A stretch of DNA of 64,000 nt, taken from assembly GCF_036417845.1 (NCBI RefSeq), contig NC_090001.1, forward strand, positions 9,841,501 through 9,905,500, in the 5' to 3' direction. A program made the translations under genes and the position numbers. The notes beneath the pieces are model-generated. The model was not told where the DNA came from, made no database searches, and saw only the letters and a program-made list of their open reading frames with translations. Shown one piece after another: positions 26,965 to 53,818 of the stretch (position 1 is its first letter; the number at the start of each line of letters is the position of its first letter). The DNA comes from Apteryx mantelli (Eukaryota; Chordata; Aves; Apterygiformes; Apterygidae).

Positions 26965-27007
26965 AGTGAACAAACAAAGCTCAGTCCTGGTTGGGATACA
27001 CTGGGAT

Positions 27008-27985: not shown

Positions 27986-27990
27986 GTGGG

Positions 27991-28010
27991 ACTGTCCAAA
28001 GAAGAAAAGA
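27991..28010 (-). promoter_or_regulatory. 3' splice site of OR gene A coding exon
   Basis: On the minus strand a pyrimidine run (tgtcttttcttctttggacag) ends six bases before the ATG. The same arrangement precedes gene B at 52634-52654. Confidence 0.6.
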
Positions 28011-31000
28011 CATTAAGAAGTTAGGAGAGACTTTTCAAATAAAAAAACACCAAAATCTTCCGGTTCTCATACAACCCCTATACTGCCTCTCTTTTTACTG
28101 AGAGGATCTGTGTGCAGCTCCCTTCCTTGAGCTCCACTTTGCACTGCCTGAGTGTGCTGTGAGCTCCAGAGGAGTCATTCCTGCTGAACAATAGTGGGAT
28201 ACATGGGAATGGGAGTGACCAGCTCTGACATTCACAGTTTCTCTCAGGTGAAATCCACTCGTCATGTGGAAGGGCTTTTCAGCATCTTCACCACCAGTTC
28301 TAAAGAAGGAGGGTTGAGAAACAGAGTGTTAGGGATGTTTTAATAATGCTTATTTTCTTTGAGATGCCCCTGTCACACCTGGGAAGTGTTCCTCAAAGGC
28401 AGAAATTCTCAGCATTCCCACTGTGAGTCCTGAGAAAAAACGATTCACTGTCACTTCATGCAGAGTGAGCACAGCTTGTCTGTCTATTAGCCTTGTTCCC
28501 AGCTGTCCTTTTCTCACACCTCCTTGAGCAGGAGGATGATCACACTCATCTGTGGCCCTAAAAAGAGACCAGCCACTGCTGAGAGCAGATGGGTCCAGTT
28601 TCAAGGTGCAGAGCTCCTTCTCTCCCTTTCTCAGAGCACCAGAGGGAGGTCTCCACACTCCCCTTCTAGCCAAGGACACACAGGGCTCTTTTCAGCTGCC
28701 CCTATACAGCTGCCCACCACCATTTCCATACTCTTCACATCTCTGCAGCTTCTTCAGGGGTCTGCCAGACATCCCAGAGATGCTCTGAGGCAGTGGTGCC
28801 CTTCTGGAGGGCAACTCAAAGTCTGGCAGGACATGACAGTGAAATGATTAAAAGGACTGCTAGGACAGAAGATGGTCTCTCCTTCAGGGAGAGTCAGCTC
28901 ATTTCCCAACACCACAGACTGCATTTCCTGTAGCTGCACAGGTGAGAAGGGGGCTGGGGATGCCTCACTCCCAAGCAGACCCCGCTATTCCAGAACTCGC
29001 AGGGCAGGTGTCTGAACTGCAGCTGAAAACCCACCAACCCCAGGGAGCCCAAGAGAAGAACAAGGGCAGCATGGACAGGAGGGCAAAGAAGGAGCAACAT
29101 GATGCTGCTGCTGCAAAGGGGGGCAAAGAGACAGAGGCAGACGGGTACTCGGGAAAGCCTTCACCTTCCCCAGCTGGGCATGCTGCCTCGCAGATGGCAA
29201 CATTGCCGGGCAGTTGCTCTCAACCCCTTTGTCAGGCAGCAGAAAATGAGCCTGTGGCAGGAAAGATGTCCCTCTCCTCTGCCGCAGGTCTGGCCACAGA
29301 GGAGGTGGCTCATGGCCTGCACTCCATGGCTGTCAAGGCAGAGGATCTGCTGGGTGGGAGCAGAGACACAGGGGACTGGCTCGGAGGAAGGTGTCTGCAT
29401 CAGAGGGACTGACCATGACTTGCCCAAATCCTTCCTCCCATGATGATTCTCTTTGCAGTTCCCTCTCATTCCCTGCCCTTCTCGCTGCCTGGAACTTTCC
29501 CTGCTGGCAGCTCCTTCTCTATCCCAATGTCTTTTCCCTGCTGGTGCTCACAGACCCCATCCCACCCTCTGCATGCTCAGTTCTGCCCGACAGACACCTA
29601 CAGGGAAAGGGCACCGGGCAGAGGCATTGCTGTGCTCAAAGGTCCTGAGGAGCAGGTCAGAAAAACCTTGACAAGGCCATAAAGGTGATGCTGGTGCTGT
29701 CTGTAGGCTGAGGTGGAGCTGAAGGGGTTTGCTGAGCTTTCTCACAGACCTAGTGATCTCTGAGAGGGAAGGTTTGGCAGTCCAAATTCCTTGCCAAACA
29801 ACAACAAAAACCCTCTTTCCTTTTATCTCCCTGCCAAAATTAGGACCTATTCTTTCTAGTTTTATCAGTACTAAGTAGGTTTTTCTAGACGGAGAGCTCC
29901 TTCCCTTTCTCTTAGCCTTTTTTTCACCTTCCTCCCAACAGACCCTTCGCATATATCCTCTGCGTGAGGTAGAGCTGTGAGCACCCCTGACACATAGAGC
30001 ACTCTCTTGGTGGGAGAATGAACCTGTCCTGCCAGAGGTCACTGAACCTATCAGTCATAGGATGGGATGGGTTTAGAAGACCCCTCCAGGAAGCAGTGTT
30101 GCCCTGCAGCCAGAGACTTACCATGTAAGGGGCTGTGAAGATTTTTCCCACAAGGAGCTCTCCTCTGGCCTCACACTCCACACTCCCTTTCACTTCTCTC
30201 TCTCCTGTCTCGTCACATGTCAGGAACAGCAGGCAGTGCCCAGAGCCCTGCTGCTCTTTGCAGAGGAGCTGCTCCTGCACACAGCTGTCTCTCAGCAGTG
30301 TTGCCAGGTTGCCAGGAGCTCCCTCCATCCCAGGAGCCTGGTCACACTCAGGAGCAGAGACCCAGCTGAAGGCGTGATTTTCTCTGTCCCTTGTGCTCCC
30401 TCCTCCTGGGAAAGGTTCACTAAAGTAGATGACAATAATGACCTAGAGTCCCTCTCTAAATCATGCAGAGACACTGATTTCAGCATGACTATTTGTTGCA
30501 TCAGAGGATGGTCATCTAGGACACATGGAAACATCCCACTCTGGAAGACCCTATTCCCATCTCTTAACTACACAGCACACCTAGACAGGGACAAGAAGAG
30601 AGTTCCTTTTCCCATGGTTCAGGTATTGATTCAGGTGAGTCCATCTGGGCATCTCATGCCTGTTTAGAAGTCCCTGGGATGGAGTGGGATTCAGCTCTCT
30701 CCCATGAACTCCACAAACACACAGGAGGTGGGATTCCCCTTTCTCAACCTGTAGTGAGCACAACATAGACGTCCGCATGCAAGCTCCTTGTCTAAGCTCC
30801 CACTGTAACCAATAGAGATGGAGTGTGAGAGTCAGTTGTTGGCACACAAAAACCCAGTGACATTTGAAGAGACAGAGGTGGTCCAAAGCATGTGTTTGCT
30901 TGCCCTGATGGAGCAAGTGTGAGACCCACGTCCTTCTAGAGCCTGAGCTGGGGGCCATGTAGGGAATTTCCTTGGCCATCTGAAATGACACGAGATGCCT

Positions 31001-31789
31001 AATACTGCTAGAGCTCCACTCATGAAGCTGAGGCACAAGCAGATCCTTACACTGTAAACGGTTGATGTAATTCAGTGCAGACACTTCATTTCATGACAGA
31101 AATAGGGGAAGTGCCCCAGGGCATTCTGGGTTTCCTGCCTCTGCCCAAACAACGGGATCCCACCACTGCCTTCAGGCAAAGTCCATCCCATCTAGAGCCA
31201 AGTGTGCTTCATAAATGGGAAGCACATCACACCAAGGTCTCTACTCATGTCCCTGCACTCTTAAACCCTCCCAGATCTCCTTTCTCTGATCCTCTTCTCA
31301 CCCCAAATGAATGGGGACTGTGTTAAGGATGTCCACAGGGTGGCTGGATTGCCAACTCTCCAGGCCCAAGGACTTTCTCAGGGGCACTTTGTCCCTTCTG
31401 GAGATCAGTTCACCTCTGTCACAGGCCCCAAGGTGCTGCAGGGTCAGTTTGGGCAGCAAACCCCTCTCCTTCTGTTCCTGCAAGGCCCAGCTCTCTTTCT
31501 CCCTGGCCTTGGCCACTGCAGGGTTTGCTCTTTTAGTGGGAACCTCCTTTCACCATTACATTGCCACCTGCTCTCTATGCCAGCCTGTCACTACTCAGAA
31601 TCAAATCCTCTGCATGCACCAGGACCTTGGTAACAGGTTTCCCTGTGACAGATCTTCAGCTGGTGTGACAGCTGAGGTGATGAAGCCAAAATAGATACAA
31701 ACAAAAGCAGCCTGGGGCACAGACAGGATTGCCATAACTGAGATGTGGTGGGATCAGTCCCATGACTCGAGTGCTGCGATGGTAGGGTA

Positions 31790-32080: not shown

Positions 32081-32204
32081 AGAAAGGAGAGGCTGAAAAG
32101 GAGGAATTCAGAAATACAGTGTTGTCCAGCGAAGTAGGGAAGTCAAAGCTCCCCTAGCATACACACCTGCAGGGGACATCACGAGCACAAAGAAGAGCTG
32201 CTAC

Positions 32205-33270
32205 TGCTTCAGTAACAGTAAAAGAGTAAAGAAGGAAAGTGGGGGCTCAGTGCTGCATGGGGCAGGGAATGTAGCAAGAGCAGGTGTAGACAGGTCTGAG
32301 GAGCTCAGTGCCTTCTTGGCTTCAGGCTTCACCAACAAGGTCTCCTGGGCTGTTGTGCCCAGAGGCAGGACTGCAGATGAGAAAACCAGCCTGCAGTGCC
32401 TGAGGGTTGAGAGAGGGATGACTTGCAAGAACTCAACCAATACAATCTACGGGATTGGATGTGTGGCATGCTCAGACATTGAGAGAGCTGCCTGCTGCCA
32501 CAGCAAAGCAACTCACTATCATCAAAGGTTGTGGAGATCAGGGGAGGTGCCAGTGACCAGAAAAAGGAATATGTTGTGCCCATCTTCAAAGAAGGCCACA
32601 AGGACAGCTAGGGGAGCTGCTGAACAAGAGCCAGCAGCGTGTCCTGGCAGCAAAGGAGGCCACAGCATCCTGGGTTGCATGAACAGTAGCAGAGTCAGGA
32701 GATCAAGGGAAGTGATTATCCCCTTCTGCTCAGCACTCTTCAGAGCACATCTAGAGATGGCCCCCATTTCGGGGCCCCCTGCAGAAGAATGATGTTGAAC
32801 ACTCAGACTGAGTTCAGTGGCAGGCCGCCAAGGGCATCAGGGCTGGAGAACTTGCCCTGTGAGGAGAGGCTGAGGGAACAGGCCTTGTTCAGCCTGCAGA
32901 AGGAAAGGCTCTTGGGGACTCATAGCAGCTTCCCAACTCAAGGTTACCACCAAGAAAGAATCAGGCTCTTTACAGAGATTCAGGGCAGGAGAATGAGAGG
33001 TTATTAGCTGACACAAGTGCAGCTAGAATGGTTATAAGCTGACACCAGTGCAGCTGGAATTGGATTAAAGGGAGAAACATCAATGAGGATAACGAAATAT
33101 TTGAAGTGGGGTCCAGAGAGCTTTTGGACTCTCTGGTCTTGGAGGCTTTCAGCATGCTGTTGGACAAAGCCCGGAGGAACTTAGTGTGAATTCAGTGTTG
33201 ATCTTGAGTAGAGCAGGAGGCTGGACTAGAGACCTCCCGAGGTCCCTTCCAACCGGAATGGTTTGGTGAT
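32205..33270 (+). mobile_element. CR1 LINE, internally deleted, sense
   Basis: Begins 'gctactgcttcagtaacagt', passes 'accaacaaggtctcctgggctgttgtgcc' and continues to 'gtcccttccaaccggaatgg'. Shares its 5' part and 3' end with 16875-17775; the middle parts differ, since this copy keeps a CR1 RT-end section ('catcctgggttgcatgaacag'). Confidence 0.8.
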
Positions 33271-34559
33271 TCTGTCCTCTCTGGTGACAGCTACTGCCAT
33301 TCTTGCACTCCTGAATTCCTTTTCTACATGTGGGTTAGCACCACACATGGCATCCCCAGAGCCAGCCCCTCCCAGTGGTCTCAGGTTGCTTCTTTGGTCT
33401 GAAAATTTTTCAGTTCAAAGTTTGATTATGAATGGCTACCTCTCCAGAATGGCCCTCCTCACAGCCTACAACACCTGTGCCTTACAACATGATGCTCTTC
33501 ACTGTTGTGATTGATGGAAGAATGAGGGCCAATGAGCATTAGTTGAAACAAGAGAGGTTCAGCCTGGGTATAAGCAACAGCTTTTTTTCCCTCCAGACAG
33601 GGAAAACCTGGGGCAGTGTAGTGAGAACCGCTGCAGGAGATCTGTTGAGGAGTCAGGGGAGCAGCAGAGTACGCTATCACAGCCCTGGAGTGTGCTCTGT
33701 ACACACTGACCAAAACCGCTCAGGGCTGGACATGCCTATTCCCTTTTGTCAACAATGTCCAGCTGCTTCCCAGCCAGTATTGACTCGAGCTTTGCATAGT
33801 GGAGGTAAGGAACTAGCTCTAAGGGGCCCTTAGGATACACAGAGTAAGCCCCACCTGGGTGTCCCAGCCCTGTGTCCAGCATCTGCCCATCAGCGACCCC
33901 CTCCGAGCAGTGTCCTGGCCTCCCCACGCAGTTTAGAGTGTAAGTAAGTCCTTCATTAAACCTACTTTGTTTAACCCCTCACGAACTTTGAGTGTCTCTC
34001 TATACCGGTATCTGACCCTCCCTTTCCTGCCTTGCAGTCACAGGCAGGTTGCCCAGAGGTGCTGTGCCATCTCCTCCCTTGCAGGTTTTCATCCCTAACT
34101 CAATAAAGCCATGAGCCAGCTGGTCGGACATGATAGCTGACCCTGCTGTGAGCAGGAGGTTGAACTAGAAACTTCCCCATGCCCCTTCCAGCCTGGATGA
34201 TTTTGCATTTCCTTCCGCCTCGGATCTTCCCTTCCTGATGGTAGGGAAAGCCGTCAGGTTCCGCGTGACCATGGAAGTAAGTCAGAAACAATATGGTCAA
34301 AGCACACGCTAATGTCTTGTTCTTTTCCAGTCACTGTCGCTCAGATGTAGGACTGCTTGGCAGGTACCCACAAACAGCTCTCTTCATACTCTTTATTTCA
34401 CCTTTTCTTTTCTGTTTTCCTCTTTCCCCCTTCCAAGTCCTTTGCTTTTATCATACACATGCCCTCTCATACAAATAGCCCACCTCTGTTTACCCTGTCC
34501 CCTCTGGCTCCAGTTTTGCTTACTTTCTACCTTCATTTGGCTTTTCCAGACCATCAGAG

Positions 34560-35040
34560 GAGTGACCCTGAGGAGAAGGGCCTGGACATTATGATGGATG
34601 CCGTATGAGCCAGTGGTGCATGTTCACCAAAATCAGGCCACCTTCATGCAGGGCTGCATTAGGAAGAGCCTGGCCACCCAGGCAAGGACAGCTATTGTTC
34701 CCCTCGACTCAGCACTGGGGTGGCCACATGTGGAATAGTGTGTCCCGGTGTGGGCTGTCCAGTGTTCGAGGAATAGGAAGGACCAGGAGAGGGTCCAGAG
34801 GAGGTCTGCCAAGATGGTGCTTGTTGCCTGCAGCACAGGACCTGTGCAGGGAGGCTGAGGGACCTGGGCTACATTATCCTGGTGAAGGGGAGGCTAAGGG
34901 CAGTACAGCAGCAGCCTGTGAGTGCTTGAAGGGTGATTGCAGAGGTGATGGAGCTTTTCTGGGGAGTAGGAAATAGCATGAGAAGGGGAAAGAGCCAAAA
35001 AATGCAGCTTGATTGGTTCAGACTGATCTTTTGGAAAACA
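34560..35040 (+). mobile_element. CR1 LINE fragment, sense
   Basis: Equivalent of 19085-19600: 'gggctgcattaggaagagcctggcc' and 'gagggtccagaggaggtctgcc' followed by a degenerate 3' part. Confidence 0.7.
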
Positions 35041-35702
35041 AAATGTCACTTGTGCTGTGGTTCAACAGGACACCCAAAGAGAGTCTGTGGTGAGCCCCTG
35101 GCTTTGTGTTTGAACAAAAAGCAAGTGAGGGGAAAGAGTGGGAAGATCCCAGGGTGAGAGCAAGGTGGGGAAGCAGAGCAGGTGTCTACAGGCTTCAGAG
35201 AAACAGACGCAGGAGTTGGACAGCATAGGACAGCCTGTGGTGGAGACAGCTGAGGGCACTGCCAAGGCTGAAAGCCTCCAACAGAACTGAGGCCTTTATC
35301 CTCTTGGCTGTGGCTAGTGCCTCTGCCACCAAGGCCTACAAGAAGATGCTGTTTCCTTAGGGCACTGGGGCCTAGTTGCCTCCTCATCTCTGCGGACCCA
35401 GGAGGTCTTGTATCATTATCCTGCACTTGGCCTCGCACACCCCCACCCTCACACTGCCCCCACAAAGAGCCCTGAGCAAAGCATCATCCTGCCCAGGGAC
35501 TTGTGGGGGCTTGGCCATTCTGCTTAATGAAACACATCCAGGTTTTCCTGGCATCAGAGCCACCTGCACATTTCCTTTGCCTACCTGCAGTCAGGGCCTC
35601 CAACTTTCTGCTCTCATCAGCCCCTGGGGAGGGTTTGTCAGTAATGGCCCTCAGGGGGACTCATCAGTGCTTCAGGAAACTTCTGAATTCAACTTCTTGA
35701 GA

Positions 35703-35954
35703 GGTCACCACGGGGCCCCACACTGCCTGGCCACACAGCGCCGTGCTGCCACCAGGCCCTGCCACAACCCGCACTGCCACCCACAACATGGTGCCCAACT
35801 GCAGGCTGAGGGGGCAGAGCAAGTCGCCAGGGCAGGAGGGCCCAACGTTGCCATGGCATTGCCCCAGTGCAGCCCTCCTATTGGCTGGCAGGAGGAGGAG
35901 GGCAGGCACGATTTCACTGATGGCTCTGACAGCCAGTTGGAGTCCAACATGTGG
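35703..35954. other. GC-rich segment with a primer-binding-site-like 18-mer
   Basis: This segment lies between the CR1 mosaic and the left foldback arm. At 35789-35806 'tggtgcccaactgcaggc' resembles the lysine-tRNA primer-binding site of class II endogenous retroviruses (about 13 of 18 positions) and follows 'ccacaaca', which has the CA end expected of an LTR. No LTR matching the one at 45235-45467 precedes it. Chance resemblance is quite possible. Confidence 0.25.
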
Positions 35955-37382
35955 AAGGAGAAAAAAGACGTGAAGGAAGAGCAGGAGAAAAGCAGGCAAG
36001 AAGCAAGTGGGAGAGAGAGCGGGTGCGAGTGGGTTTGGTGGGGGCTGCAGGCGCATTCAACTGCCAGCGGGTGCCCTCGCACCGGGGCGGCAGCAGCAGT
36101 GCTGGCGACGGGGCTGCTTTCCTGCACGAGCTGCAGCAGGGGCTGGTGGGGCCGTGAGCAGGGGACAGAGCGACCTGGGCTAGAGCGGGCAGCTGCCCTG
36201 CAGCCAGATGTGGCAGCCTGCCCTGAGCAGCTGGGCCAGGGTGGCTCGGTGGGGTTTGGGTGCAGGAACATTTGCCCCTATGGAGGGTCTGGATCTGGCC
36301 CCTAGGTGCTGCTCAGAACTGCGTTTGGGAGGTGCTGGACAGAGTGTGAGCAGGCTGCTGGTGTCCTCACGAGGTGCCCTTCCCAATGGAGTCTTCTCTT
36401 CTAAAAATGGCGTTTCTGAGTGTGTCTGAGAGAGGCTGTCCCCGCATGTCATGCCGTGCCTTAGCTGTTGTTTTTGCTGCAGGCTTCTTGCTTCTCCCCG
36501 AGACCTGTGAGCCTGGCAGCAGGGTGAAGGGTGTTTCCAGAGCAGCTCTGTAAGTGGGAGCTGTTTTGCTTGTCAAGGGCCTTAAACGCTGATGAACGGC
36601 CAGTGCTCCCACTTTCCGTTGTTATTTCCATCCTCCTAGGTCAGGATGAAGAGTTGCTGAATTGTGGCTCTGCTGGTTTCACCAGCCGAGATGGCCTGGC
36701 CTGAGTCCTTCTGCGTGTCTCCAATTGTCAGCGCATAAAACAGGAGAGTGCTTGTTGTCCTGGATGTGTGGTGGATTTTCTGGGTTTGTTCAGCATTGGG
36801 GAAGGAATCAGACTTCTGAGTTGCGGGAAAGCTTCTCCCTCTCCCTGGGGCTTGAGGCCCTGCTGTCTTCAGGTTCCTGATCGCTGCTCCCATGCAACCC
36901 TCCCGTTAGAAAATGTTGCCAGGAATTACTTGCAGGCCTTCTCCCAGTTCCTAAGTTTTAGGGGCTACATGTAGCGACTACCTAGGCAAAAGCTAATCTT
37001 GTTTTGGGGTCGTGACTGGTACCTGAGGGGTATTTTGCTCACTCTGAGCGTTGTGAAGCCACAAGGTGAATCAGGGAGGCCATTCAGGAGCTGGCTCAGC
37101 CTTGGGGAAGAGCAGGGGGAGCTGCAGGTGGCAACAGCCCCATGGTCAGGGTGTGGGTAGTGAGGTCACCACTGTCTGTGAAAGCTATGCCAAAAAATCA
37201 CCAGTTTCAAATCAGTTCTTTGCAGGTAGCTGATAGGCCATCAGGAGGCACATGGCTCAGCTGTTGATGATGAGGTGACTTCTGCCTGAGTACCTGATAG
37301 TGCAGGTGGAGGAAGAAGGCTTGGCTGTTGCTTGTGAGGTCCCTTCTGACTGCTGAACTGATTGGATAGCAGGAGTCATGTG
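35955..37382 (+). repeat. Left arm of near-perfect 1.43-kb inverted repeat
   Basis: The reverse complement matches 43398-44825 with a constant coordinate sum of 80,780, meaning no net indel over 1428 bases. Two differences were seen, at 36412 and at 37376. The outer end is the 'aaggagaaaaaagacg' motif. The inner end falls within about 180 bases of the 65-bp satellite in reverse orientation (37205-37382). The arm has a GC-rich outer third and no recognised gene; the long frames read in it are mirrored in both arms because the DNA is the same. Confidence 0.93.
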
Positions 37383-37749
37383 GGATCCACAGCTGGCCAT
37401 GCTGTTTGGCAGCTGCCACTCCTCCCTGTCCAGCCCAACAACAATTCGCATCTAGAATTGTGTTTCTTGTCAGGAGTGAAGAGGGCTTCAAGAAGCATCT
37501 GCACATTCCCCCAAGTGGGGTCATATGTGCAAAATATTTCCCTTACTACTTGCAAAACCTTTTCCAGATCCTCAGAATCTGTCTGATCTGCAGAATCTGT
37601 CTTTAGGCGATGTTGTAAAAAGGTCAGTTCTTGTTGGTCCAAAATCCCCTGCGGTGGCCTCGAACAATTTAGGGAAAAGTTCAGCGATGTGTGGCCTTAG
37701 GCTTCAGTAGATTTAGCTCCAAGTGCTAAGCAAATGCTGTTATATACAA
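37383..37749. other. Unassigned spacer between left arm and satellite
   Basis: No gene or repeat was recognised. Contains a short repeated 'atcctcagaatctgtctg/atctgcagaatctgtct' pair at 37570-37604. Confidence 0.5.
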
Positions 37750-39370
37750 CAATCAGGCACTGAGGCACAAGTGACCTCACAAGCACAAACAGCAGCCATG
37801 GGCCTAGCACTGGCCTATCAGGCACTGAGCCACAAAGAACCTCACAAGCACAAACAGCAGCCACATGACCAGCACTGGCCTATGAAGCACTGAGATGGAA
37901 GTTACCTCACAACCACAAACAGCAGCCATTTGCCTAGCATGAACATATCAGGCAATGAGGAAGACCTGACCTCACAACACCAAACAGCAACCACATCACC
38001 AGCACTGGCTTATCAGGCACTGAGGCACAAGTGACCTCACAACCACAAACAGCAGCCATGGGCCTGGCACTGGCCTATAAGGCACTGAGGCAGACGTAAC
38101 CTCACCATCACCAAAAAGAACCACATGACCAGGACTGGCCTATGAGGCATTGAGGCACCAGTGACATCACAAACAGCAGCCACATGACCAGCACAGGCCT
38201 ATCAGGGACTGAGGAAGAAGTCACCTCACAACCACAAACAGCAGCCATGTGACGAGTGCTGGCCTAGAAGGTACTGTGGTACAGGTGACCTCACAACCTC
38301 AAACAAGAACCACATGACCAGCACTGGCCTATGAGGCACTGAGGCACAAATGACCTCACAACCACTAACAATACCACATGACCAACACTGGCCTACCAGG
38401 AACTGAGGCACAACTGACCTCACAACCACTAACAGCAATAATGTGTCTCCTTGTTGCCTGTCATTTACAGATGCACAAGCGGCCTAACAGTGTGGATCAA
38501 AGGAAGTTGCTTGCTGCTTGCCTATTCTGAGGAAGTAGTGACTTCACAGGCTTCATCAAAGGCACGTGCCTTCTGCTGGCCTATTGGATAGTAAGGCAAT
38601 AGTGACCTCACAAGCAAAATCAGCAGCCGTGTGCCTACCCTGGCCTCTCAAATTCTCAAACAAAAGTGCCCTCACACTCTGCACTGAAGCCATATGCCTG
38701 CTGCTGGCCTAGCATGGACTGAAGTACACGAAACTCAGAAGCACAAACAGCACTAACCTCCACACCGCTGCTATACCAGGTGCTCATGGGAAGTGAGCTC
38801 AGAACCAGAAACAGCAGCAAGGGGTCTGCCGCTGGCCTATCAGATTCTCCAGCAGCAATGACCTCAAAATCTCCATTGAAACCATGGGCTTGCTGCTGGC
38901 CTATCAGGCGCTGAGGCACAAGTGACCTCACAAGCACAATAGCAGCAATGTGCTTGATGCTGTCTAAGCAGGTACTGAAGCAAAAGTCACCTCACAAGTA
39001 CAAAAAGGAGCAATGGGGCTGCTGGTGGCCTAGCAGATCCTGAGGCCGAAGGACTCCACAAACACAAACAGCAGCAAAATGCATCGAGCTGGACTGTCAG
39101 GTGCTGAGGCTGAAGTGACCTCACAGGCCGCCATGAAGCCGTATATCTGCTCCTGGCCTGTTAGCAACTGAGGCACAATTGACCTAAACAAGCACAAACA
39201 GCAGCAATGGGCCTGCTCCCCATTTCTGAGGCACTGAGACACAAGGCACCTCACCATCAGCACCAAGCTATGGGCATGCTGTTGGCCTACCAGCTTCAGA
39301 GGCACAACTCACCTCACAAGCGCAAATGGCATCGAAGTGCCTGCTCCTGGCCTATCTGGTACCGAATCAC
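37750..39370 (+). repeat. 65-bp tandem satellite, main block (about 25 units)
   Basis: Units start with a 'ggcactgaggca'-type motif at 37756, 37821, 37886, 37951, 38016, 38081, 38146, then 38205, 38270, 38335 and 38399, i.e. 65 bases apart except for units of 59 and 64. A typical unit contains 'gtgacctcac', 'acaaacagcagcca' and 'ctggcctatcagg'. Units after about 38440 are more diverged but keep 'ggcctat' and 'tgacctcac'. No coding region was seen. Confidence 0.93.
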
Positions 39371-41055
39371 AAGGGATCTGAAAAGTGCAAACCTTCTCAG
39401 AGGACAAGCTCACCTGGGCCACTCGCATGGCCCTTGATTACACTGTTATCACTCTGTACAGAACAGTCTTCTGCAAACAGCTTTCATCTCCTGGCAAGAC
39501 TCTCTCCAGGTCATGCGACAGCTCTACTCTGTCACCCTGGGCACAAATCACAAAAGGGAACAACTGGTCTCGCTTTTCCTTTAGTACCATCAAGTCCGAG
39601 CTGGGAGCCTTTGCACTGCAGCACCTACACAATGACAGCAGGATGCCACTTCCACTCCTAGTGCTGAGATGCAGAGATCAGCTGAGGGAGCAGCTGCACT
39701 GGAAAGCATTTCTGACACTGTCAGATCAACTCAGCACTGCAGCAGGCATCAACCTGACGCCAGACCTCTGCTGTGCCACCTAGTCTACAAACACACTGTC
39801 TCTGCCCCACAGAGCTGGCCGGTCTGCTACATACAACCAGGTGCCAGCAAGAAGAGATGGATGCAGGACACTCACCACTTGCACACTCGCCAGGCACTGC
39901 TCTGCTTGCTGCCTTCCCTTGGCTCCTCCACCCAGACACACAGCGAAGCTCTTGTGGAAACAACAGATGGTGGCCAAGGCACTCTGGGCTCACAAGGCCT
40001 GTGCAAATGATTAGCACAAGCTGAGGGAGGGACAGAGTTGGCTCCTTGGGCGATGCTTTTGTTTTCAGAGGGAAGGATCCTGCTTTCTTTGGGCACAGCA
40101 CACTGCTGCTTTCCACCCCCACTCCCTCAGGAACCTCCAGCTAGGCATGGGGGGATGGGGTTTTTGTTTAGTAATACAAAAGTTACAGATACAATGGAGA
40201 AACAGTTGAAAGACCTGAAGGCCTCCTGAGCCCAAAGTAACCTCATTCCTTCCCTTTATTTACTTGGACAAGGAGCCCCGGGTGAAGGGGAAAAGGGTGC
40301 AGAGCCTTTGAAATGAGGCCCAAGCAATGAGACAGCCCCAGACTGCAGGTCTGCTGGAATGCCAGCTGTCCTGGCTGCGCTGGCTCTGAAGCAGCAGTCC
40401 GGGCTCCACAGCTGGGTCCACAGAGCACTGAGGGCTGGGTGCCTTGGGCAACCCAGCCCTGGGCACATCTTCACCCCTCGCAGAGCCAGGAGCCCAAGAG
40501 CTCTGAGACCTCCCCAAGTCAAGCTACAGAGCCTTTGGGACACTCACACAAAGGCACCCAAGACATGCTGGCATTTATTATAAGGGTCTTGCACTCATTG
40601 TATATGCCACCGCAACCTTCTAGGAAAAGGAGGGGACATAGTAGCTTTTGCTGAGCAGGCTGGTTGTAACAGCAGTTGTGCAACACGGAATTTGCAGCAC
40701 AGCAGAGGTACCAGGAGGTGAACCCACACCCCAAGTCACCCAGGGAAGCCAGGTGCATTTATGGAAGCCTTCACATCCATACGAATCCTCATCTCATCCA
40801 CTTGCAGCTGCTTTCACAGAGGGCTCACGATGTTGCCAAAGATGTTGACAGCTACAGGGACACACCCGGGCACCTGCCTTCATCCTCAGGGGCTCTAGGA
40901 CTGCACTGGGAACCTCCATGGGTGGAGCAACCTAGAAAGAAAGAAAGAATCGGAGTGTTACTGGCAGTTCTGCTGGCCTTACACAGTCGCAACAGTCAGG
41001 GGCAAATGTCTCCCCTCTATGCTGAGCTGTATTTGTGAGAGCACAGCCAGCAGGG
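39371..41055. other. Unassigned DNA inside the foldback loop
   Basis: No gene was recognised. A 132-codon frame (39385-39783) starts at the end of the satellite and has no family motif that I know. 40026-41055 is of mixed composition without identifiable repeats. Confidence 0.5.
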
Positions 41056-41059
41056 TCAC

Positions 41060-41600
41060 CAAGATGTTCTACCCCTCTTTTTGGCACAGGGGAGACCATG
41101 TCTGTACTCCGGGTCCTGTTTGGGCTCTCCGGTTCTGCGAAGGCACTAACACACAGGAGGGAGTCCAGCACAGGGACACCTAGATGGTCAGGGGCTGGAG
41201 CATGGGACATATAAGGAGATGCTGGGAGAGCTCAGTTTGTTCAGCCTAGACAAGAGAAGGCCAAGGGGAATCTTCCTGCTGTGCACAGCTCCCTTATGGA
41301 GGGCACAGGGAAGATGGAGACAGATTTTCTTGGAGGTGCGCACTAATAGCATGAGAGGCAACAGGGACAAATTGGACAATGGGAAATTCTTCTTAGATGT
41401 TGAGAGCAAACCTTTTCCTCCCTGATGGTCGCTGGACTGTGGCACAGGGATGAAGAGAGGTTCTCAGCTCTCCATCCTTGGAGACAATCAAAACTTCACT
41501 GGAAAAGGCTCCAAGATACCTCATGTCCTGGGACCTGCCTTGAGTAGGGCGTTTCACTCCCACCTCCAGATGTCTCCTCCATTGCAGGCTGAAAGGAATC
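41060..41600 (+). mobile_element. CR1 LINE 3' end fragment, sense
   Basis: 'gtactccgggtcctgtttgggc', 'gagatgctgggagagctcag', 'ttgttcagcctagacaagagaagg' and 'gacaaattggacaatgggaaattcttct' follow a CR1 3' half in order. Strongly diverged. Confidence 0.75.
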
Positions 41601-42885
41601 TGCTATTCGGGATTGGAATGGATTAGGATCTGAGATGGGAAGATGCAATGAGGGTCCAGCTTCAACAGAAAGCCTTTAATGAGGGAGAAGATAACTTTCT
41701 CCAGGGGAGTCAGGAAAAGCGCAAAGACTCACAGAAGCATCAAACCCTTCCGAAACTGCAAGCCTGGACCTCAGCTGACAGAAACCACCAAACTGCGAGC
41801 AGCCCTGGCTCGCACCAGGATGCTCCAAGGAGGCAACACGGTCACCAACAGTCCTCACCCAGGTCTCCCAGAAGGACACTATTATGGCAGGCTGGACTCT
41901 GGGAGCAGAGCACTGCTCTCTCCAGACACCTCCTTCCACGCTGAGCACCAAAACACTGGGGCCACCACTTGGCTCCACCACAGGGCACCCCGCACTGGAA
42001 CACGCCTCTACCCCTGCACCTCACAGAGGGTTGGCAGCCAACATGCACCTCTGCATCTGTGACACACAGGGCACAGCACCGCACAGGGCAGCAGGCAGGG
42101 CACCCCCAAGCGCCCCAACACACAGGAAGCCCAACTCTCCAGCCCTTCCATTCCCTTCTAGGCCTCCAAGGCCTTGCAACTTGCACTTCCTCTGAACATC
42201 CACTCACAGCCCGGGGCCTGCTCACTTCCTACCTCCAGGAAGCAGAGAGCAAGTGCTCTCACAGCGGCTGATCAGGTCACCTCTTGCCTCTTGCTTGTGC
42301 CTCAACTTCTCTGAACAAGAAATCTCTCTGAAAATGTGGCCCATACCTTTTTGGGGGGTGACATTCCTTCTGCCTCCTCCAACAGCCTTTGCAACCATTC
42401 TCCAGTGACTGCATATGTCAACAGAAAACCAGAGACCTCTAACGTGTTACACTTACAAATGTGTCATAAAAGCAGGCGGACACCTGAAAGACAGACACAT
42501 CATTCAGACCTTGCAGGAAAATCTCACAAGCTCCCTGCTCTTTTGACACAGGCAATTTCTAAAGCACACACACCCTGGCAATAAGAGATTACTAACACCA
42601 CTGCTCACAACAGCACTAGATGGATTTAGCAGCCTCAAAAGTCTACTTGGACTCCCTAGCTGACCGGGAGGAGGCTGCAAGCTTCTGCTTAGCAAGAAGT
42701 GGAAAGGCAAACTCCATGTCCGTGTTCCCCACAGAACATCATCCACATTTGAAATGTAGCAGTACTAACTCATGATGACGGAGTGGAATCAAATTTGTGC
42801 CAGATGATGTGGAACATCAACTTCTGCTTGATTAATGAGTTCCATTTCTGTATTGCTGTGGAGCTCTGCAGGGGTTAATCCCTCC
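41601..42885. other. Unassigned DNA inside the foldback loop
   Basis: Composition is ordinary. No coding region, RNA gene or known repeat could be supported. Confidence 0.5.
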
Positions 42886-42889
42886 TCTG

Positions 42890-43575
42890 AGCACACACAA
42901 CAAACCCAGAAGTGACCTCACCACCAACATCCGAGTCATGTGTCTTCTCCTGACCTATCAGCTGCTCAGAGGGAGATGACCTCACTGGTGCATACCCCCA
43001 CCACCTTCCTGCTGCTGGCCTATTGGATTCAGAGACAGAAGTTCCCTCCAAATAACTTCCCCAGCCATGAACTACTGATGGCCTATCAGGTACTCTGACA
43101 TAACAGACCTCCAAAGCAAGTGCATACCCCCACCACATGCCTAACTGCCTGCTGCTGGCCTATCAGGCACTCAGAAAGATGTGACCTCACAGTCACCTTC
43201 ACAGCCATATCTCTGTCACTGGTCTAGAAGCCTCTAAGACAGAAAATACCTCACTATAATTTCCCCAGCCATGAGCCAGATCCTGCCTTATCAGCTGCAC
43301 AGAGAGAAATGATCTCAAGATCACAGATCTCAGCCATGGACCTGCTGCTGCCCTATCAACTGCTCAGGCAGAAATGACTCACAATCACCTCTCCAGACAC
43401 ATGGCTCCTGCTATCCAATCAGTTCAGCAGTCAGAAGGGACCTCACAAGCAACAGCCAAGCCTTCTTCCTCCACCTGCACTATCAGGTACTCAGGCAGAA
43501 GTCACCTCATCATCAACAGCTGAGCCATGTGCCTCCTGATGGCCTATCAGCTACCTGCAAAGAACTGATTTGAAA
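42890..43575 (+). repeat. 65-bp satellite, second block (about 10 units)
   Basis: Same family as 37750-39370 and the same orientation, with 'ggcctatcagg', 'ctcaggcagaagt' and 'tgacctca' landmarks spaced mostly 64-65 bases, with one longer interval of about 77. The unit form is closer to 'tactcaggcagaagtcacctcatcatca' than the main block. The last part (43398-43575) belongs to the right foldback arm. Confidence 0.88.
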
Positions 43576-44825
43576 CTGGTGATTTTTTGGCATAGCTTTC
43601 ACAGACAGTGGTGACCTCACTACCCACACCCTGACCATGGGGCTGTTGCCACCTGCAGCTCCCCCTGCTCTTCCCCAAGGCTGAGCCAGCTCCTGAATGG
43701 CCTCCCTGATTCACCTTGTGGCTTCACAACGCTCAGAGTGAGCAAAATACCCCTCAGGTACCAGTCACGACCCCAAAACAAGATTAGCTTTTGCCTAGGT
43801 AGTCGCTACATGTAGCCCCTAAAACTTAGGAACTGGGAGAAGGCCTGCAAGTAATTCCTGGCAACATTTTCTAACGGGAGGGTTGCATGGGAGCAGCGAT
43901 CAGGAACCTGAAGACAGCAGGGCCTCAAGCCCCAGGGAGAGGGAGAAGCTTTCCCGCAACTCAGAAGTCTGATTCCTTCCCCAATGCTGAACAAACCCAG
44001 AAAATCCACCACACATCCAGGACAACAAGCACTCTCCTGTTTTATGCGCTGACAATTGGAGACACGCAGAAGGACTCAGGCCAGGCCATCTCGGCTGGTG
44101 AAACCAGCAGAGCCACAATTCAGCAACTCTTCATCCTGACCTAGGAGGATGGAAATAACAACGGAAAGTGGGAGCACTGGCCGTTCATCAGCGTTTAAGG
44201 CCCTTGACAAGCAAAACAGCTCCCACTTACAGAGCTGCTCTGGAAACACCCTTCACCCTGCTGCCAGGCTCACAGGTCTCGGGGAGAAGCAAGAAGCCTG
44301 CAGCAAAAACAACAGCTAAGGCACGGCATGACATGCGGGGACAGCCTCTCTCAGACACACTCAGAAATGCCATTTTTAGAAGAGAAGACTCCATTGGGAA
44401 GGGCACCTCGTGAGGACACCAGCAGCCTGCTCACACTCTGTCCAGCACCTCCCAAACGCAGTTCTGAGCAGCACCTAGGGGCCAGATCCAGACCCTCCAT
44501 AGGGGCAAATGTTCCTGCACCCAAACCCCACCGAGCCACCCTGGCCCAGCTGCTCAGGGCAGGCTGCCACATCTGGCTGCAGGGCAGCTGCCCGCTCTAG
44601 CCCAGGTCGCTCTGTCCCCTGCTCACGGCCCCACCAGCCCCTGCTGCAGCTCGTGCAGGAAAGCAGCCCCGTCGCCAGCACTGCTGCTGCCGCCCCGGTG
44701 CGAGGGCACCCGCTGGCAGTTGAATGCGCCTGCAGCCCCCACCAAACCCACTCGCACCCGCTCTCTCTCCCACTTGCTTCTTGCCTGCTTTTCTCCTGCT
44801 CTTCCTTCACGTCTTTTTTCTCCTT
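43398..44825 (-). repeat. Right arm of near-perfect 1.43-kb inverted repeat
   Basis: Mirror of 35955-37382. Its inner end lies inside a continuous satellite array, while the left arm switches from satellite to unrelated DNA at the same point. The outer end abuts retroviral 3' sequence at 44826. Confidence 0.93.
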
Positions 44826-45234
44826 TTTTCTCTGCTTGCGCATTTTGCTAATCCTCATAACTATAGGCTTATGCTTGTGTGTAATACTGAGCTGCGTTAA
44901 GAAAGCCTTGCTGAAAGTAGCGGGCCAAGTCTGGATTGCTCGAAAACAAGAAGGAGAACTTCTGGAGGAATGGCTGGGCTTTGGGGGGGGGGATATAGTC
45001 TGTTGGAAATGAGCAATCCCGCCTATGCCTTTAAGGTTTTCCCTGAACGACGAAGACAAGGACATCGCCTGCGTTAAGAATCGGGAAAAGGGGAAGCAGC
45101 ACACAGCTCTGATCACGAAGCTACTAATGCAAGGAACCACCTGATGGCGGTCCCGTCGAGACACGCCGCACTTCCGCGTGTTTTGTTGCGTCCCGCTCGA
45201 TATAACGAAACAACGTTGATGGGAGAGGGGGAGA
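44826..45234 (+). mobile_element. Endogenous retrovirus 3' internal remnant
   Basis: The first part continues in frame as a hydrophobic stretch (LRILLILITIGLCLCVIL) followed by a short basic/acidic tail ending at a stop near 45012. This resembles the membrane anchor and cytoplasmic tail of a retroviral envelope protein. A non-coding section follows, then a polypurine tract at 45221-45234 immediately before the LTR. Everything upstream (gag, pol and most of env) is missing because the foldback arm ends here. Inactive. Confidence 0.7.
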
Positions 45235-45467
45235 TGTGGAGGAAAAAGGATGAGCAGGGAGGCACTGCGGGGCGGAACATGGGAAGGTCGTAACGGGCGG
45301 AGCACTGCTGCCGGAGAAGAAGGCGGGGCTTTACAGCATTATAAAAGAGCAGGACGCGCTTCATTAAACGCCATTTTGCCACTCCTCATATTGGTGTCTG
45401 TGTGGTGATGGTCCGGGGTCTGGGGAGAAGGCCCCGTGCCTCCTCGGTAAGAACGAGAATGGTAACA
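45235..45467 (+). mobile_element. Endogenous retrovirus 3' LTR
   Basis: A 233-base LTR starting TGTGGAGG directly after the polypurine tract and ending GGTAACA. It contains TATAAAAG (45340-45347) and an ATTAAA polyadenylation signal (45363-45368) in the expected order. No matching 5' LTR was found in the window. Lineage is probably class II (ERVK-like), inferred from the layout only. Confidence 0.78.
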
Positions 45468-45923
45468 CTCCACCCCAGTTATTTTCCAACATTTTCTGAT
45501 AACTCCTTGAGGAACGTCTGCAGATGTTGCCAAAGGCAGTGAAATACCAAAAATGGGGAACTAGAGAAGTTACTTCTGCGCCCCTGCACTGGCAGGTGGC
45601 TGCACTAGGCAGCTCCGTGCAGGAATCGTGGGTGTGGGGGTTGGTTTGGGGCTTGGCATTTTTCAAAACCAGGATCAAAGTCCTGTGGGTTGAAACAGCA
45701 CAAAGAGTGGCCATGCATTGAGATGCTTTGGTGAGCCTCAAGACTGGTTTCTCCTGTGGGTCCCTCTTTTTGTAGAAGCAGGATGTAGGAGAACACGGGA
45801 GAGGAGAGAGCCTTCCTCCTTTGGGCACCAAAGCAGGCTCTTTGCTTGTAAAAGTCCTCAGCAAGGTTTCTCGGTGTGCGGTGCTTAAGATAGAGATGAT
45901 GTGCCATAAAAGAGCAAACGTGC
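45468..45923. other. Unassigned DNA between two LTRs
   Basis: No gene or repeat family recognised. Confidence 0.5.
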
Positions 45924-46748
45924 TGTGACGGTGTGCTCCTTTCCCCCCACCCCACTGATGTGCTCTCTCCGCCTCAACCTGACCTCCCTGTAAACAGCAT
46001 GTATGCAGGGGCTAATTGAGCGTGCGCCCGTCTAGCATGCAAATATGACTATGAGTCAATCATCTCCCCCCCCCCCATAAATAAGGGGCAGCCCAGAGCC
46101 CATTGAGCTCTCCTGCACAGCAGTGGACTGCACTGCAGAAGCTCCTCCTGAGCAGGGACGCCTCTCAAGGTTCCTTCTCAAGGTGGAGAGATTCCTTACC
46201 CACGACAGATCCTTGGTAAGTGATTAATAGCATGCTGAACTTTTGTGAACTTCACAAAACTTTGCTGAGTTACATCTCTGATTAATTGTGCCCATGATCC
46301 CTTAGACATAAACCGTTGACCCAGTCTCGGACTAGGATTGGATCCAGCCGCACCTAGGCTCCTCTCCAAAGGAGTTTAGAAAGCAAGGGGGTCCTTTCCA
46401 AACCTCGTGACTCAACAGGAGGGTCTCCTTGGCACACACTCCTTTAGGCATTAACCGTTGACCAAGTCTCGGACTAGGACTGGATCCAGCCGCACCTAGG
46501 CTCCTCTCTGAGGAGGACTTTGGAAGGCAAGGGGATCCTTTCTGAACCTCGTGACTCAACGGGAGGGTCTCCGTTGCATGTGTATCTGACCCCGTCCTTC
46601 ATGCAGTAAATAACTGAGTGAACTTTACCTATTGAACCTCATTACATTGTTCTTATTTACGATTGAACTTTGTTAAGTCACTATCTTATCGCAATAACCA
46701 TAGTGCTGCTTCCCTCTTACGAGTGAAGTGCATCACTCCTTTGTGACA
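45924..46748 (+). mobile_element. LTR copy 2, plus strand, uninterrupted
   Basis: About 825 bases from TGTGACGGTGTGCTCC to about CACTCCTTTGTGACA. Contains an ATGCAAAT octamer (46037-46044), TGAGTCA (46052-46058), a C11 run and a TATA-like ATAAATAAGG (46077-46086), two tandem units of about 138 bases (about 46306-46443 and 46444-46588) and an AATAAC at the position of a polyadenylation signal. The octamer, TGAGTCA and TATA-like boxes are conserved in copy 1 (minus strand, 14973-16867). Ends are approximate and no target-site duplication was found. Confidence 0.75.
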
Positions 46749-46839
46749 CCTTGACGTCCCCTGCAAGTGTCTATCCTAGAGGAGCTTTGGCTTCCCGAAC
46801 ACTAACCCTACTTTATAGACAATAACACACTGTTTAGTC

Positions 46840-47560
46840 CAGCTGTTGTGCTGAGATGTTTTACTGGTTTTACCGGTTACACTACTCTTTTTACTGAGTA
46901 TTGGTGTGGACCATCTTTGTGCTTGGTGGGTGCTGTTCTTAATGACTTGCTGGCTTTCCTGAGCTCCTGTGCCCTTCAGAGCTCACTCCCATGGGATCCC
47001 CCAGCAGTCCTCAAAGAGGCCAAAGTCTGCTCCTCTGAAGTCCCGAGTCTGTACTCTGCTGCTGTCCTTCCTCCCTGCCTTCAGGATGTGGCACTCCACT
47101 ATTTCATGGTCCCTGCAGCCAGTGTTTCCACTGATGATCACCTCCCCGATCAGTTCTTCCTTGTTTGCGAGTACCAGATGCAGGAGAGCATCGCCCTTCT
47201 TAGCCCATCTGGCAGCTGTGCTAAGAAGGTGTCCCTGACACCCTGCAGAAACTTCCTGGACTGCTTTCACCCTGCACTTTGCCGTTCCACTGCGTGCCAG
47301 GGGGATTAAAGTCCCTACATAAGCAGCAGGCCCTGTGTGCCACAGACTTCCTCAGCTTGCTTAAAGGAGCCTGCGTCCACTTCTTCGCCCTGATCTACAG
47401 GGTGAACTGTAACTCCCATCGCAAGGTCACCCTTACTCCCATGCTCATTCACCTTTTCCCATCCAGCACCTTGTCCTTCCCTTGGAAGAGCTCCACAAAT
47501 CCCAGGTGGCCCTTTACACAGAGGGCATCCCCCCCCCCCATCATCTGCCCTACGAGTCAC
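46840..47560 (-). mobile_element. CR1 LINE endonuclease-end fragment, antisense
   Basis: On the minus strand 46983-47270 reads as the end of the CR1 endonuclease domain and the linker: NKEELIGEV, CRDHEIVECHIL and RGADFGLFEDC. A further upstream part (VHPVDQGEEVDAGSF) is at 47280-47400 in broken frame. This is the only endonuclease-coding part of CR1 seen in the window. Confidence 0.88.
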
Positions 47561-50500
47561 TCCTGAAGAGCTAGTACCCTGCCATCAGAGCATTCTAGTC
47601 TGGTGAAACATATGTAATGGTGAAAGGAGGTTCCCGCTAAGAGATCAAGCCCTGCGCCGCGCAAGGCCAGGGAGCCTTTGATGGAGGTAAATCGGTGTCC
47701 AGGAAGGACAAGGTGCCCCTGAGAAAGTTCTTGGGCCTGCACAGCCTGCCATCCAGCCATCCTGTGGACAGCGTTAGCACAGTCCCTGTTCATATCATGT
47801 GGGAGTGGGAAGAGGCTCAGGGAGAGGAGAGCTAGAAGGTGTTAAGCGTGCAGGGACATGAGTAGAGCCCTTGGTGTGATGTGCAGCTCTATGCTGCACA
47901 CTTGGATGTAGAGGGGATGGACTTCACCTAAAGACAAGTGGGATTCACTTGTTTGGACACAGGCAGGTCCCAAGTGGTATCTGCTGGAGACATATGATTG
48001 TGCTTGACACGCCAGGCATCACGGAATCTAGTGCCTGCACTGAATGACATGAACTGCTTGCAGTGTAGGGATCTGCTTGTGCCTCAGCCTCCTACTGTGT
48101 GGAGCTCTGGCAGTATTAGGCATCTCGTGTCATTTCAGATGGCCAAGGAGATCCTCCACCTGGCCACCACCTAATGCTCTAGAAGGATGTGGGTCTCACG
48201 GTTGCTCCATCAGAGCCAGCAGATGCCTTGGACCACCTCTCTCGCTTCAGATGTCACCACGTGTTTGTGTGTGGGCACCTCGCTACTCCCCTCCCTCTCC
48301 AGTGATTATCATGGGAGCTTAGACAGGCAGCTCGCATACCGGCATCTTTGTTGTGCACACTCCAGGTTGTGAAAGGGGAATCCCACCTCCCGTTTGTGGA
48401 GTGCGCAGAAGGGCTCTGAATCCCAGTCCATCCCAGGGGCTTCTAAACCAGCATGAGAAGCACAGATTGACGCGTCTGAAGCAATACCTGAGCCGTGGAT
48501 CATTGAAATCCCTTCTTGCCCCTTTTCTAGGTGTCCTGCCTAGTTAAGAGATGGGAATAGGGTCTTCTAGAGTGGGACATTTCCATGTGTCCCAGATGAG
48601 CATCCTCTGATGAGACAAATTGCAATGCTGGAATGGGTCTCTCTCCACTCTTTAGAAAAGGCCCATAGGTGATTCTTTCAGTCTACTTCAGTGAACATGT
48701 CCCAGGAGGAGGAAGCACAAGGGACAGAGAAATTCACGCCTTCAGCTCGACCACTGTTGCTGAGCAGAGGCAGGCTCCTGGGATGGAGAGAGCTCCTGGC
48801 AAGGTGGCAGTCCTGCTGGGAGACAACTCTTTGCAGGAGCAGCTCCCCTGTCAAGAGCAGCAGGGCTCTGGGCACTGCCTGCTGTTGCTGACATCCATGA
48901 GAGAAGGCAGAGAGAAGTGAAAGGGAGTGTGGAGTGAGAGGCCAGAGGAGAGCTCCTTGTGGGAGGAATCTTCCCAGCACTTTGCACGGTAAGCCTCTGG
49001 CTGCAGGGCAATGCTACTGCTGTTGCTGGAGGGGTCTTCTAAACCCAGCCCATAACGGAGAGTTTTCATAAGGACTGCTGTCCTGGCTTCTCCAGAGTGC
49101 AGGAGGGCATTCCCTGCCACACCATCCTGGGGACAGGGTGTCCTGCTGCCTTCTGCCAGGGAGAGCTGCATGGGTGTGAAGCCAGGGTGTGCCACAGGTC
49201 TAGCCAGGGCTGTCATTCAGAGCAGTGTTCCTGCCCCCCAGGGTGCTGTGTGCCCCAGGCAGTGAGTCTGCTGCCTGCGAGGGTCAGCACTCAGCCTGCC
49301 CAGCAAACTCCCCACAGTGCTGCAGGGAGAAGCTCTGAGTGGGAGGAGAGACCCGGACAGGGCAGGTTGAGTGTGCTGTGGAGAGGGTGCTGCATGGGTC
49401 AGGGCTGCTCACAGCTCCAGCTCACCCTGAGGACATTTCTGGAGGGCACTTTTCAAAAGGAAGTTCAAGGCAGGGGCTACTTGAAAGGGAAGGAGCTTTC
49501 CTTCTAGGCTGAGTGCTTTCAGTTTTGTAATTTTGGGAGGGGAGAAAACAGGAAAGAATTTTCTGCTTTGGGAAGGAACTGAGACTCTCAAACCTTCCCT
49601 CTCAGAGATCACTAGGTCTGTGAGAAAGCTCAGCAAAACCCTTCAACCCCTCCTCAGCCTACAGACAGCACCAGCATCACCTTTATGGCCTTGTCAGGGT
49701 TTTTCTGACCTGCTCCTCAGGACCTTTGAGCACAGCAATGCCTCTGCCCAGCGCCCTGTCCCGGTAGGTTTCTGTCAGGCAGAACTGAGCGTGCAGAGGG
49801 TGGGATGGGGTCTGTGAGCACCAGCAGGGAAAAGACATTGGGATAAAGAAGGAGCTGCCAGCAGGGGGAGCTCCAGGCAGCAAAATGGGCAGGGAATGAG
49901 AGGGAACTGCAAAGAGAATCATCATGGGAGGAAGGATTTGGGCAAGTCATGGTCAGTCCCTCTGATGCAGACACCTTCCTCCAAGCCAGTCCCCTGTGTC
50001 TCTGCTCCCACCCAGCAGATCCTCTGCCCTGACAGCCATGGAGTGCAGCCCGTGAGCCACCTCCTGTGTGGCCAGACCTGTGACAGAGGATAGGGGTATG
50101 TCTCCTGCCACAGGCCCATTTTGTGCTGCCCAACAAAGGGCCTGAGAGCGACTGCCCTGCGGTGTTGTTGTCTTTGAGGTGGCATGTCCAGCGGGGGAAG
50201 ATGAACGCTTTCCTGAGTGCCCGTCTGTCTCTGTCTCCTTGCCTCCCTTTGCAGCAGCATCACTCTGTTGCTCCTTTGCCCTCCTCGTCTTGCTGCTCCT
50301 GCTCTTCTCTTGGGCTGCCTGGGGTTGGGGAGATTCAGCTGCAGTTCAGACAGCTGCTCTGCAAGTTGTGCAACAGAGGGGTCTTCGGAGGAGTAAGCTG
50401 TCCCCAGCCCCCCAAACCCTGTGCGGCTCCAGGAAATGCAATGCAAGGGTTTGGCGAATTAGTTGACCTTGTCATGCTCTTCATCACTCTCTCCCTATCT

Positions 50501-52221: not shown

Positions 52222-52603
52222 TGTGGAGGGCCATGACAGGGTTAAACTGGTGGAAAGTTGCAAGTAGCAAGCAACAGGAGCCTCCGACAAACATACTCAA
52301 GGACACCGGTGCAGGTGGGAATGATACATCCTTAGAAAGTACAGATAAACTAGCAGAAGCCAGTGGGAACCAAGGTTAAGGGCAAGACAGCCTTTCCAAA
52401 CAAGTAGCAGAGTACAAGGCGTGACCGCTGCGTGCGTGATCGGTGCAATGATTGGCTACCTGTGACATAATCTGTATGATGATTGGCTTAGCAAAGTGTG
52501 TCTGTGAAACCACTGAAGCAGCTAACTTTTTAAATATGCTCAGAAATAAATAATAAAGGCCTCAGGACGCAAACCCCCCTGAGTCCGTGCCATTCATCTG
52601 CCA
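52222..52603 (+). mobile_element. Solo LTR with 6-base target duplication, just upstream of OR gene B
   Basis: Starts TGTGGAGGGCC and ends ATCTGCCA, flanked on both sides by GTCTCC (52216-52221 and 52604-52609). A 6-base duplication is typical of class II (ERVK-like) insertions. Inside are two ATTGG boxes (inverted CCAAT), a TTTTTAAATATGC TATA-like box near 52527-52539, and two AATAAA signals (52545-52550, 52552-52557). It is in the sense orientation of gene B and ends about 45 bases before that gene's splice acceptor. The left-arm counterpart upstream of gene A lacks it. Confidence 0.88.
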
Positions 52604-52661
52604 GTCTCCCAGAAGACTGCTCTAATCTGTCCTTGTCTTTTCCGCCTTGGACAGGTCCCCC

Positions 52662-53612: not shown

Positions 53613-53818
53613 GCTGCCCATCTCTCCTCGCAAGGGATTTCCAATTTACCTCAGGCAACTCTTGTGCTTTGGGCATTCTATCTGTGATAATTCTGTTTGT
53701 AAATGGTTGAATTCATCCCACTTCTCCAGCAGCGCAAAGCCCATCTGTCTGACCTAGAAGCCTTCCATAAATCTGCATAGCACTGTGTCAGGGCTGGCCT
53801 CTCAGCCAGCATCTCTGT

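Follow-up and report, generated by a model that had tools for sequence, protein, structure and literature searches.

Among the closest described systems are the palindromes of mammalian sex chromosomes, the arms of which are reported to be kept alike by arm-to-arm gene conversion, as in palindrome P6 of the human Y chromosome (PMC3723533) and on the primate X chromosome (PMC8981503). For human P6 the mean minimum conversion tract is given as 2,068 bp (PMC3723533), against which a tract of 1.4 kb is ordinary. For birds, the species-wise clustering of olfactory-receptor copies has been put down to independent expansion or duplication, with gene conversion as another possible cause, and the choice between them is left open (PMC2758906, PMC6969042). 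The subject here is a foldback in the genome of Apteryx mantelli, in a stretch of 64,000 nucleotides (contig NC_090001.1, positions 9,841,501 to 9,905,500) that is referred to as a whole as the window, in which a sequence of 1,428 bp, termed ARM, stands twice in inverted orientation between olfactory-receptor genes. The favoured explanation, with a probability of about 60%, is a recent homology-directed copying between the arms of an old palindrome (gene conversion, broadly taken), which end joining may have completed.

The locus resembles the sex-chromosome palindromes, as those reports describe them, in having inverted arms around a spacer, an identity above 99% and a tract length of the same order. 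It differs in that the homogenised arm is only 1.4 kb long and lies inside an old, mostly decayed palindrome that is one of many, and in that conversion is not seen over the whole arm. With the reported avian gamma-c olfactory-receptor expansions it shares the presence of many similar receptor copies within one species, whereas the exchange in the window lies in non-coding DNA between genes. The case adds one more example of a known process that had already been suggested for such a setting, and its scars are unusually clear. A literature search of partial coverage found no paper that describes palindromic units in the olfactory-receptor arrays of birds, and absence from print is not claimed.

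Inverted arms within a family of palindromes

The original prediction was of a near-perfect 1.43-kb foldback with two differences and a coordinate sum of 80,780, and base-by-base alignment of the arms proves this to be exact. All 1,428 positions pair as reverse complements at that constant sum, with no gaps and with mismatches at 36412/44368 and 37376/43404 only, which gives an arm-to-arm identity of 99.86% across a spacer of 6,015 bp; the same pair was recovered independently by a separate inverted-repeat comparison of the window. Beyond both arm ends the matching of left to right drops at once to chance level, such that no diverged homologous flank stands beside the identical tract, and rearrangements lie at both its ends. 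The surrounding inverted duplication, correctly taken in the prediction to be older and far more diverged, aligns in three main pieces at 77.3% (26307-28012 with 54302-52634), 83.3% (28920-30007 with 50440-49382) and 79.2% (30062-31429 with 49053-47671), with shifts of register between the pieces. What had been overlooked is that the arms are members of a very large repeat family, to which the loop also belongs as ordinary sequence, and that the tract ends on both sides in rearrangement scars. Cruciform extrusion over a 6-kb spacer is unlikely.

The genome comprises 1.50 Gb in 408 contigs, the window lying in a 13.1-Mb contig (C24), and as each genome search scored the best 40 candidates the counts are lower bounds. 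A 25-mer of the arm is found at up to two mismatches at 1,259 places genome-wide (625 forward and 634 reverse), where a reversed control pattern gives 0, and the first 446 bp of the arm match 38 places besides the two arms at 81-83%, 35 of them on C24 (best 40 of 1,438 candidates). ARM is thereby a member of a large repeat family among olfactory-receptor genes. The usual arrangement of the family is seen in 20 relatives (L009-L028), which are 10-kb loci around the best matches to these 446 bp. The boundary between ARM and its outer neighbour, Y, is spanned by the alignment in all 20, that between ARM and its inner neighbour, Z, is crossed in 18 (the exceptions being L022 and L028), and the match to the outermost segment, X, begins at 45468 in 19, with L027 matching further out only. 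Two relatives, L012 and L017, match from 44.8 kb to 38.3 kb of the window as a single alignment of 90.0% each, the others in pieces. The segment W, next to the left arm, has 39 other copies at 89-92%, every one on C24 (best 40 of 421 candidates). Thus each half of a palindrome usually runs X-Y-ARM-Z-loop around a central W, and the ARM-Z-loop order in the relatives makes the 6-kb loop ordinary family sequence of the right half. Left of Y in the window stands a different block, D, which consists piecewise of direct repeats with 16872-20294 and 59113-61248 and is joined to Y in none of the 20 relatives.

C24 carries many old convergent palindromes, the window locus among them. As in the window, and in the same orientation, a left arm precedes W at five of the 20 relatives (L009, L011, L016, L020 and L024), at a distance of 3.7-4.0 kb from the end of ARM to W in each; for L012/L017 this distance is about 10 kb by position. 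A second arm was sought at nine loci and obtained at four, giving arm identities of 90.5% (L009/L034), 91.0% (L024/L035), 92.7% (L016/L036) and 92.4% (L043/L044), and a fifth pair, L012/L017 at 92.5%, was recognised by position among the 20 relatives, with a copy of W between its arms; gap columns do not enter into these identities, and for two of the five pairs the comparison covered no more than 1,172 and 1,216 columns. The remaining five loci (L011, L020, L023, L040 and L041) had no second arm in the stretch examined, which for L011 fell in minisatellite, and are not counted.

Fundamental to the argument is that the window arms are an outlier in this company. They are 99.86% identical, against 77-83% for their own flanks and 90.5-92.7% in the five other palindromes, and if the divergence between them were 7.3%, the lowest in those five, the probability of two or fewer differences in 1,428 would be about 6e-44. 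The arms were also compared with 26 of 33 loci, those with an ARM match of at least 70% coverage (L025, L033, L037, L038, L039, L042 and L045 did not enter). For all 10 arms of the five other palindromes the partner is not the nearest copy, whereas each window arm has its partner as nearest, the next among the 26 relatives being at 91.3%. In a maximum-likelihood tree of the 28 arms the window arms are paired with a support of 100/100 on a stem of 0.08 changes per column.

Scars at the ends of the identical tract

Both ends of the tract are end-joining-like scars, and ARM is all that the two halves still share near the centre of the palindrome. In the relatives the bases after ARM are GCTGG (8 of 8 shown) and those before W are GATCCCATC (7 of 7 shown), from which the left inner joint of the window is a left-side deletion with a shared TGG, a microhomology of 3 bp. 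This joint of ARM to W was found at no other place scored (best 40 of 1,251 candidates). At the right outer end the 10-bp sequence CTTTTTTCTC stands at 44813-44822 and again at 44823-44832, with a single copy at the end of the left arm, and the duplication takes in eight bases of the adjoining segment, V, that lie outside the retroviral matches.

These matches concern the rest of V, where bases 9-642 (44834-45467) recur at 39 other dispersed places at 97-98%, ending at the common base 642 (best 40 of 657 candidates). V carries TATAAAAG at 45340, ATTAAA at 45363 and a purine tract at 45221, and it ends in AACA at a site that is uninterrupted in all seven relatives shown. From its TATA box, the ATTAAA, the purine tract and the dispersed copies, V is read as the probable 3' end of a young endogenous retrovirus. 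The open frame at 44503-45012, only a short part of which is V, gave no Pfam match at E-values up to 1, and a promoter and terminator scan of V, of bacterial type, gave nothing.

Table 1. Coordinates of the palindrome parts, scars and surrounding features in the window
Feature	Positions	Strand	Remarks
Outer inverted duplication, left half	26307-31561		olfactory receptor on - strand at 27008-28012
Block D	32190-35705	+	replaces X on the left side
Y	35706-35954	+	usual outer neighbour of ARM; retained on the left alone
Left arm (ARM)	35955-37382	+	1,428 bp; minority base at both differences (36412 G, 37376 T)
Left inner scar	37380-37383	+	ARM fused to W, TGG microhomology; about 3.7-4.0 kb or more gone
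W	37383-37573	+	central spacer segment of the palindrome family
Minisatellite in loop	37752-39373		65-bp unit, about 25 copies
Z	42509-43397	-	adjoins right ARM on the inner side; absent from the left half
Right arm (ARM)	43398-44825	-	1,428 bp, inverted; family-majority base at both differences
Right outer scar	44813-44832	+	10-bp tandem duplication at the ARM/V junction
V	44826-45467	+	putative truncated 3' end of an endogenous retrovirus (3' long terminal repeat and the sequence just before it); replaces Y on the right
X	45468-46868	-	family sequence usually outside Y; retained on the right
Outer inverted duplication, right half	47612-54302		olfactory receptor on + strand at 52626-53612

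Probable copying between the arms and its alternatives

How could two arms of an old palindrome come to be so alike while the parts around them decayed? In the favoured explanation a single old palindrome of the olfactory-receptor-linked repeat family occupies the window, and an older ARM would once have stood on both sides. The left half lost Z and part of the centre by the deletion at the TGG microhomology, with block D found where X is expected, and the right half lost Y to the truncated retroviral end. One ARM would have been copied onto the other through homology-directed repair between the inverted arms, with the old left arm probably overwritten from the right one, which is the simplest reading given that the left arm sits where other loci have their left arm. 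The copying and the scars may even represent one kind of repair event, in which synthesis on the other arm was finished by end joining.

The direction of copying can be judged at the two differences, for which 21 of 22 relatives were compared, L025 being too short. At 36412 the right arm has A, the base of 20 of the 21, and at 37376 it has C, found in 14, with the T of the left arm present in L011 and L020 and a gap in the other five. These two sites weakly favour the right arm as the source and the left as the copy, and because its T is common to L011 and L020 position 37376 may hold an unconverted old base rather than a new change. Two substitutions in 1,428 bp correspond to 95% limits of 0.00017-0.0051 per site. 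With avian substitution rates of 1.2-2.3e-9 per site and year, a rough clock dates the copying to about 0.3-0.6 million years ago (0.04-2.1 at the outer limits).

Several observations weigh against copying between old arms. The identity runs from edge to edge, to the last shared base on the outside and to within 7 bp on the inside, and after simple gene conversion some bases close to heterologous ends usually stay unconverted; identity of such extent would follow more readily from copying that end joining brought to a close, or from insertion of Y-ARM as a whole. Furthermore, Y-ARM on the left is bounded by D and W, both non-canonical joints, as an inserted fragment would be. There is no biased excess of changes towards guanine and cytosine (GC), the private changes of the window arms being 11-12 AT-to-GC against 24 GC-to-AT, a test that is weak because most private changes pre-date the copying. 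The median difference of the arm from its relatives is 5-17% in 13 of 14 bins along its length and 2% in the fourteenth, and the final 150 bp of ARM, being matched at 97-99% in 38 other places scored (best 40 of 1,251 candidates), are weak evidence. Finally, high arm identity arises with recent amplification too, as on contig C8, and so identity alone is no proof.

The original prediction had set a recent inverted duplication beside gene conversion, and of the two copying between old arms is preferred, with a fresh inverted insertion as its main rival. According to that rival a 1,677-bp Y-ARM fragment from the right half would have been inserted between D and W, the right Y being lost later with the retroviral deletion. 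Edge-to-edge identity follows directly from such an event, as do two non-canonical joints at the bounds of the left Y-ARM, and the left Y is without a partner for comparison. Yet ARM would have had to land by chance in its usual place and orientation beside W, a place that left arms occupy at other C24 loci, and the further deletion on the right would have to post-date a copy that is only 0.14% diverged; the insertion is accordingly thought unlikely, if still a serious competitor. Two neighbouring possibilities were weighed. Insertion of ARM alone is rejected, as ARM is accompanied by its usual neighbours, Y on the left side and Z on the right. Inversion of the loop by crossing-over between the arms would exchange the ends of the loop and give Y-ARM-Z on the left, but it is not needed, since W already lies beside the left arm at other loci.

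A further alternative is that a whole palindromic unit was recently amplified without any special exchange between its arms. This apparently explains the foldbacks of C8, which belong to the same repeat family and also have near-identical inverted arms. There the partners L046 and L047 are 99.6% identical over 1,643 bp, with 5 mismatches, and between L048, an arm of a second foldback 1.8 Mb off, and L046 there are 5 mismatches and one gap, and between L048 and L047 10 mismatches and two gaps, so that (among the three arms compared) the arms of two foldbacks are about as alike as both arms of one. An arm on contig C6 matched the C8 arms over about 760 bp only, at 95-98%. The loci L023 and L024 share 99.35% identity over 7 kb although about 780 kb lie between them. 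For the window, in contrast, the nearest of the 26 compared copies stands at only 91.3%, the first 446 bp found nothing else above 83% among the best 40 candidates, and the neighbours of ARM differ between the two sides; amplification of the unit is therefore a most improbable source of the window arms. An assembly artefact, whether a false join, over-polishing or a haplotype switch, is likewise very unlikely. The region is rich in repeats and the size of C24 is divisible by 2,500, perhaps a sign that scaffolds were cut into bins of fixed size, but arms and loop together measure 8.9 kb, which should lie within ordinary long reads, polishing would not be expected to turn 9% into 0.14%, and both the 10-bp duplication and the TGG joint have the look of biological scars.

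Signs of exchange elsewhere and the olfactory-receptor setting

The identity of the arms is not the only sign of probable exchange in the window. Within a direct repeat, 18477-19141 and about 59863-60527 are completely identical over 665 bp at a separation of about 41.4 kb. The left flank of this tract has 2-13 mismatches per 100 and two single-base gaps over about 780 bp, and the right flank 2-4 mismatches per 100 over about 200 bp, followed by larger gaps. At 5% divergence an identical run of this length has a probability of about 1.5e-15; the tract bears the usual mark of gene conversion and supports the view that conversion is active in the window. Amplification and local exchange both seem to be at work in this genome.

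The C8 foldbacks differ from the window locus in having the opposite geometry, with arms facing outward at a spacing of about 6.7-6.8 kb. Such outward-facing pairs are a second form of foldback, recently amplified where tested, in the two C8 foldbacks. On C6, C8 and C10 at least 21 outward-facing pairs of the arm 25-mer, spaced by 6,741-6,793 bases, were counted by eye among the places listed, and C8 has at least 3 pairs at about 13.66 kb, counted in the same manner.

The palindromes are set among olfactory receptors. Four of the nine window frames tested matched PF13853 in Pfam (E-values of 5e-49 to 1.5e-21), those at 9348-10406, 27008-28012, 52626-53612 and 58302-58994, and these receptors may belong to the gamma-c (OR14) group, which the sequences resemble in their look. 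Another of the nine frames, presumably CR1, is a fragment of reverse transcriptase that scored below the Pfam cut-off. In the window there was no Rfam hit at gathering score and no tRNA. Membership of ARM in a known protein family is rejected, as its frames, 35376-36305 and 44475-45338, gave no Pfam match at an E-value of 0.001.

A wider idea is held only tentatively. The olfactory-receptor units of this genome may be built as palindromes whose inverted and direct copies overwrite one another in kilobase patches, and copy-and-join repair, which would be homologous copying ended by microhomology or templated end joining, may both homogenise and rearrange the array. If this is true, overwriting by kilobase patches would directly support concerted evolution, beside independent expansion, for the species-wise clustering of bird olfactory-receptor copies. 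At this locus tracts of exchange can be dated in non-coding DNA, free of the confounding effect of selection on the receptor, and with a large set of homologous palindromes in one assembly duplication and conversion could be counted separately.

The two inverted receptors, 27008-28012 and 52626-53612, differ by a synonymous divergence (dS) of 0.23 and a non-synonymous divergence (dN) of 0.17. Along the gene the synonymous divergence is 0.07-0.23 per 40-codon bin in the middle, against 0.33-0.43 at the ends. This dip possibly reflects old conversion or relaxed constraint, the synonymous comparison being one that does not separate conversion from selection. In the flanks, about 500 bp at 29301-29800 show 4-10 differences per 100 from about 50060-49560, against 14-30 in the neighbouring bins, and the right side of this patch differs by 2-9 per 100 from three other loci; it too is put down to old conversion or constraint. 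At locus L037 the 65-bp minisatellite of the loop occupies the entire 5 kb examined. Both C24 (13,117,500) and C19 (17,967,500) have lengths that divide exactly by 2,500, which would fit scaffolds cut at a fixed bin size.

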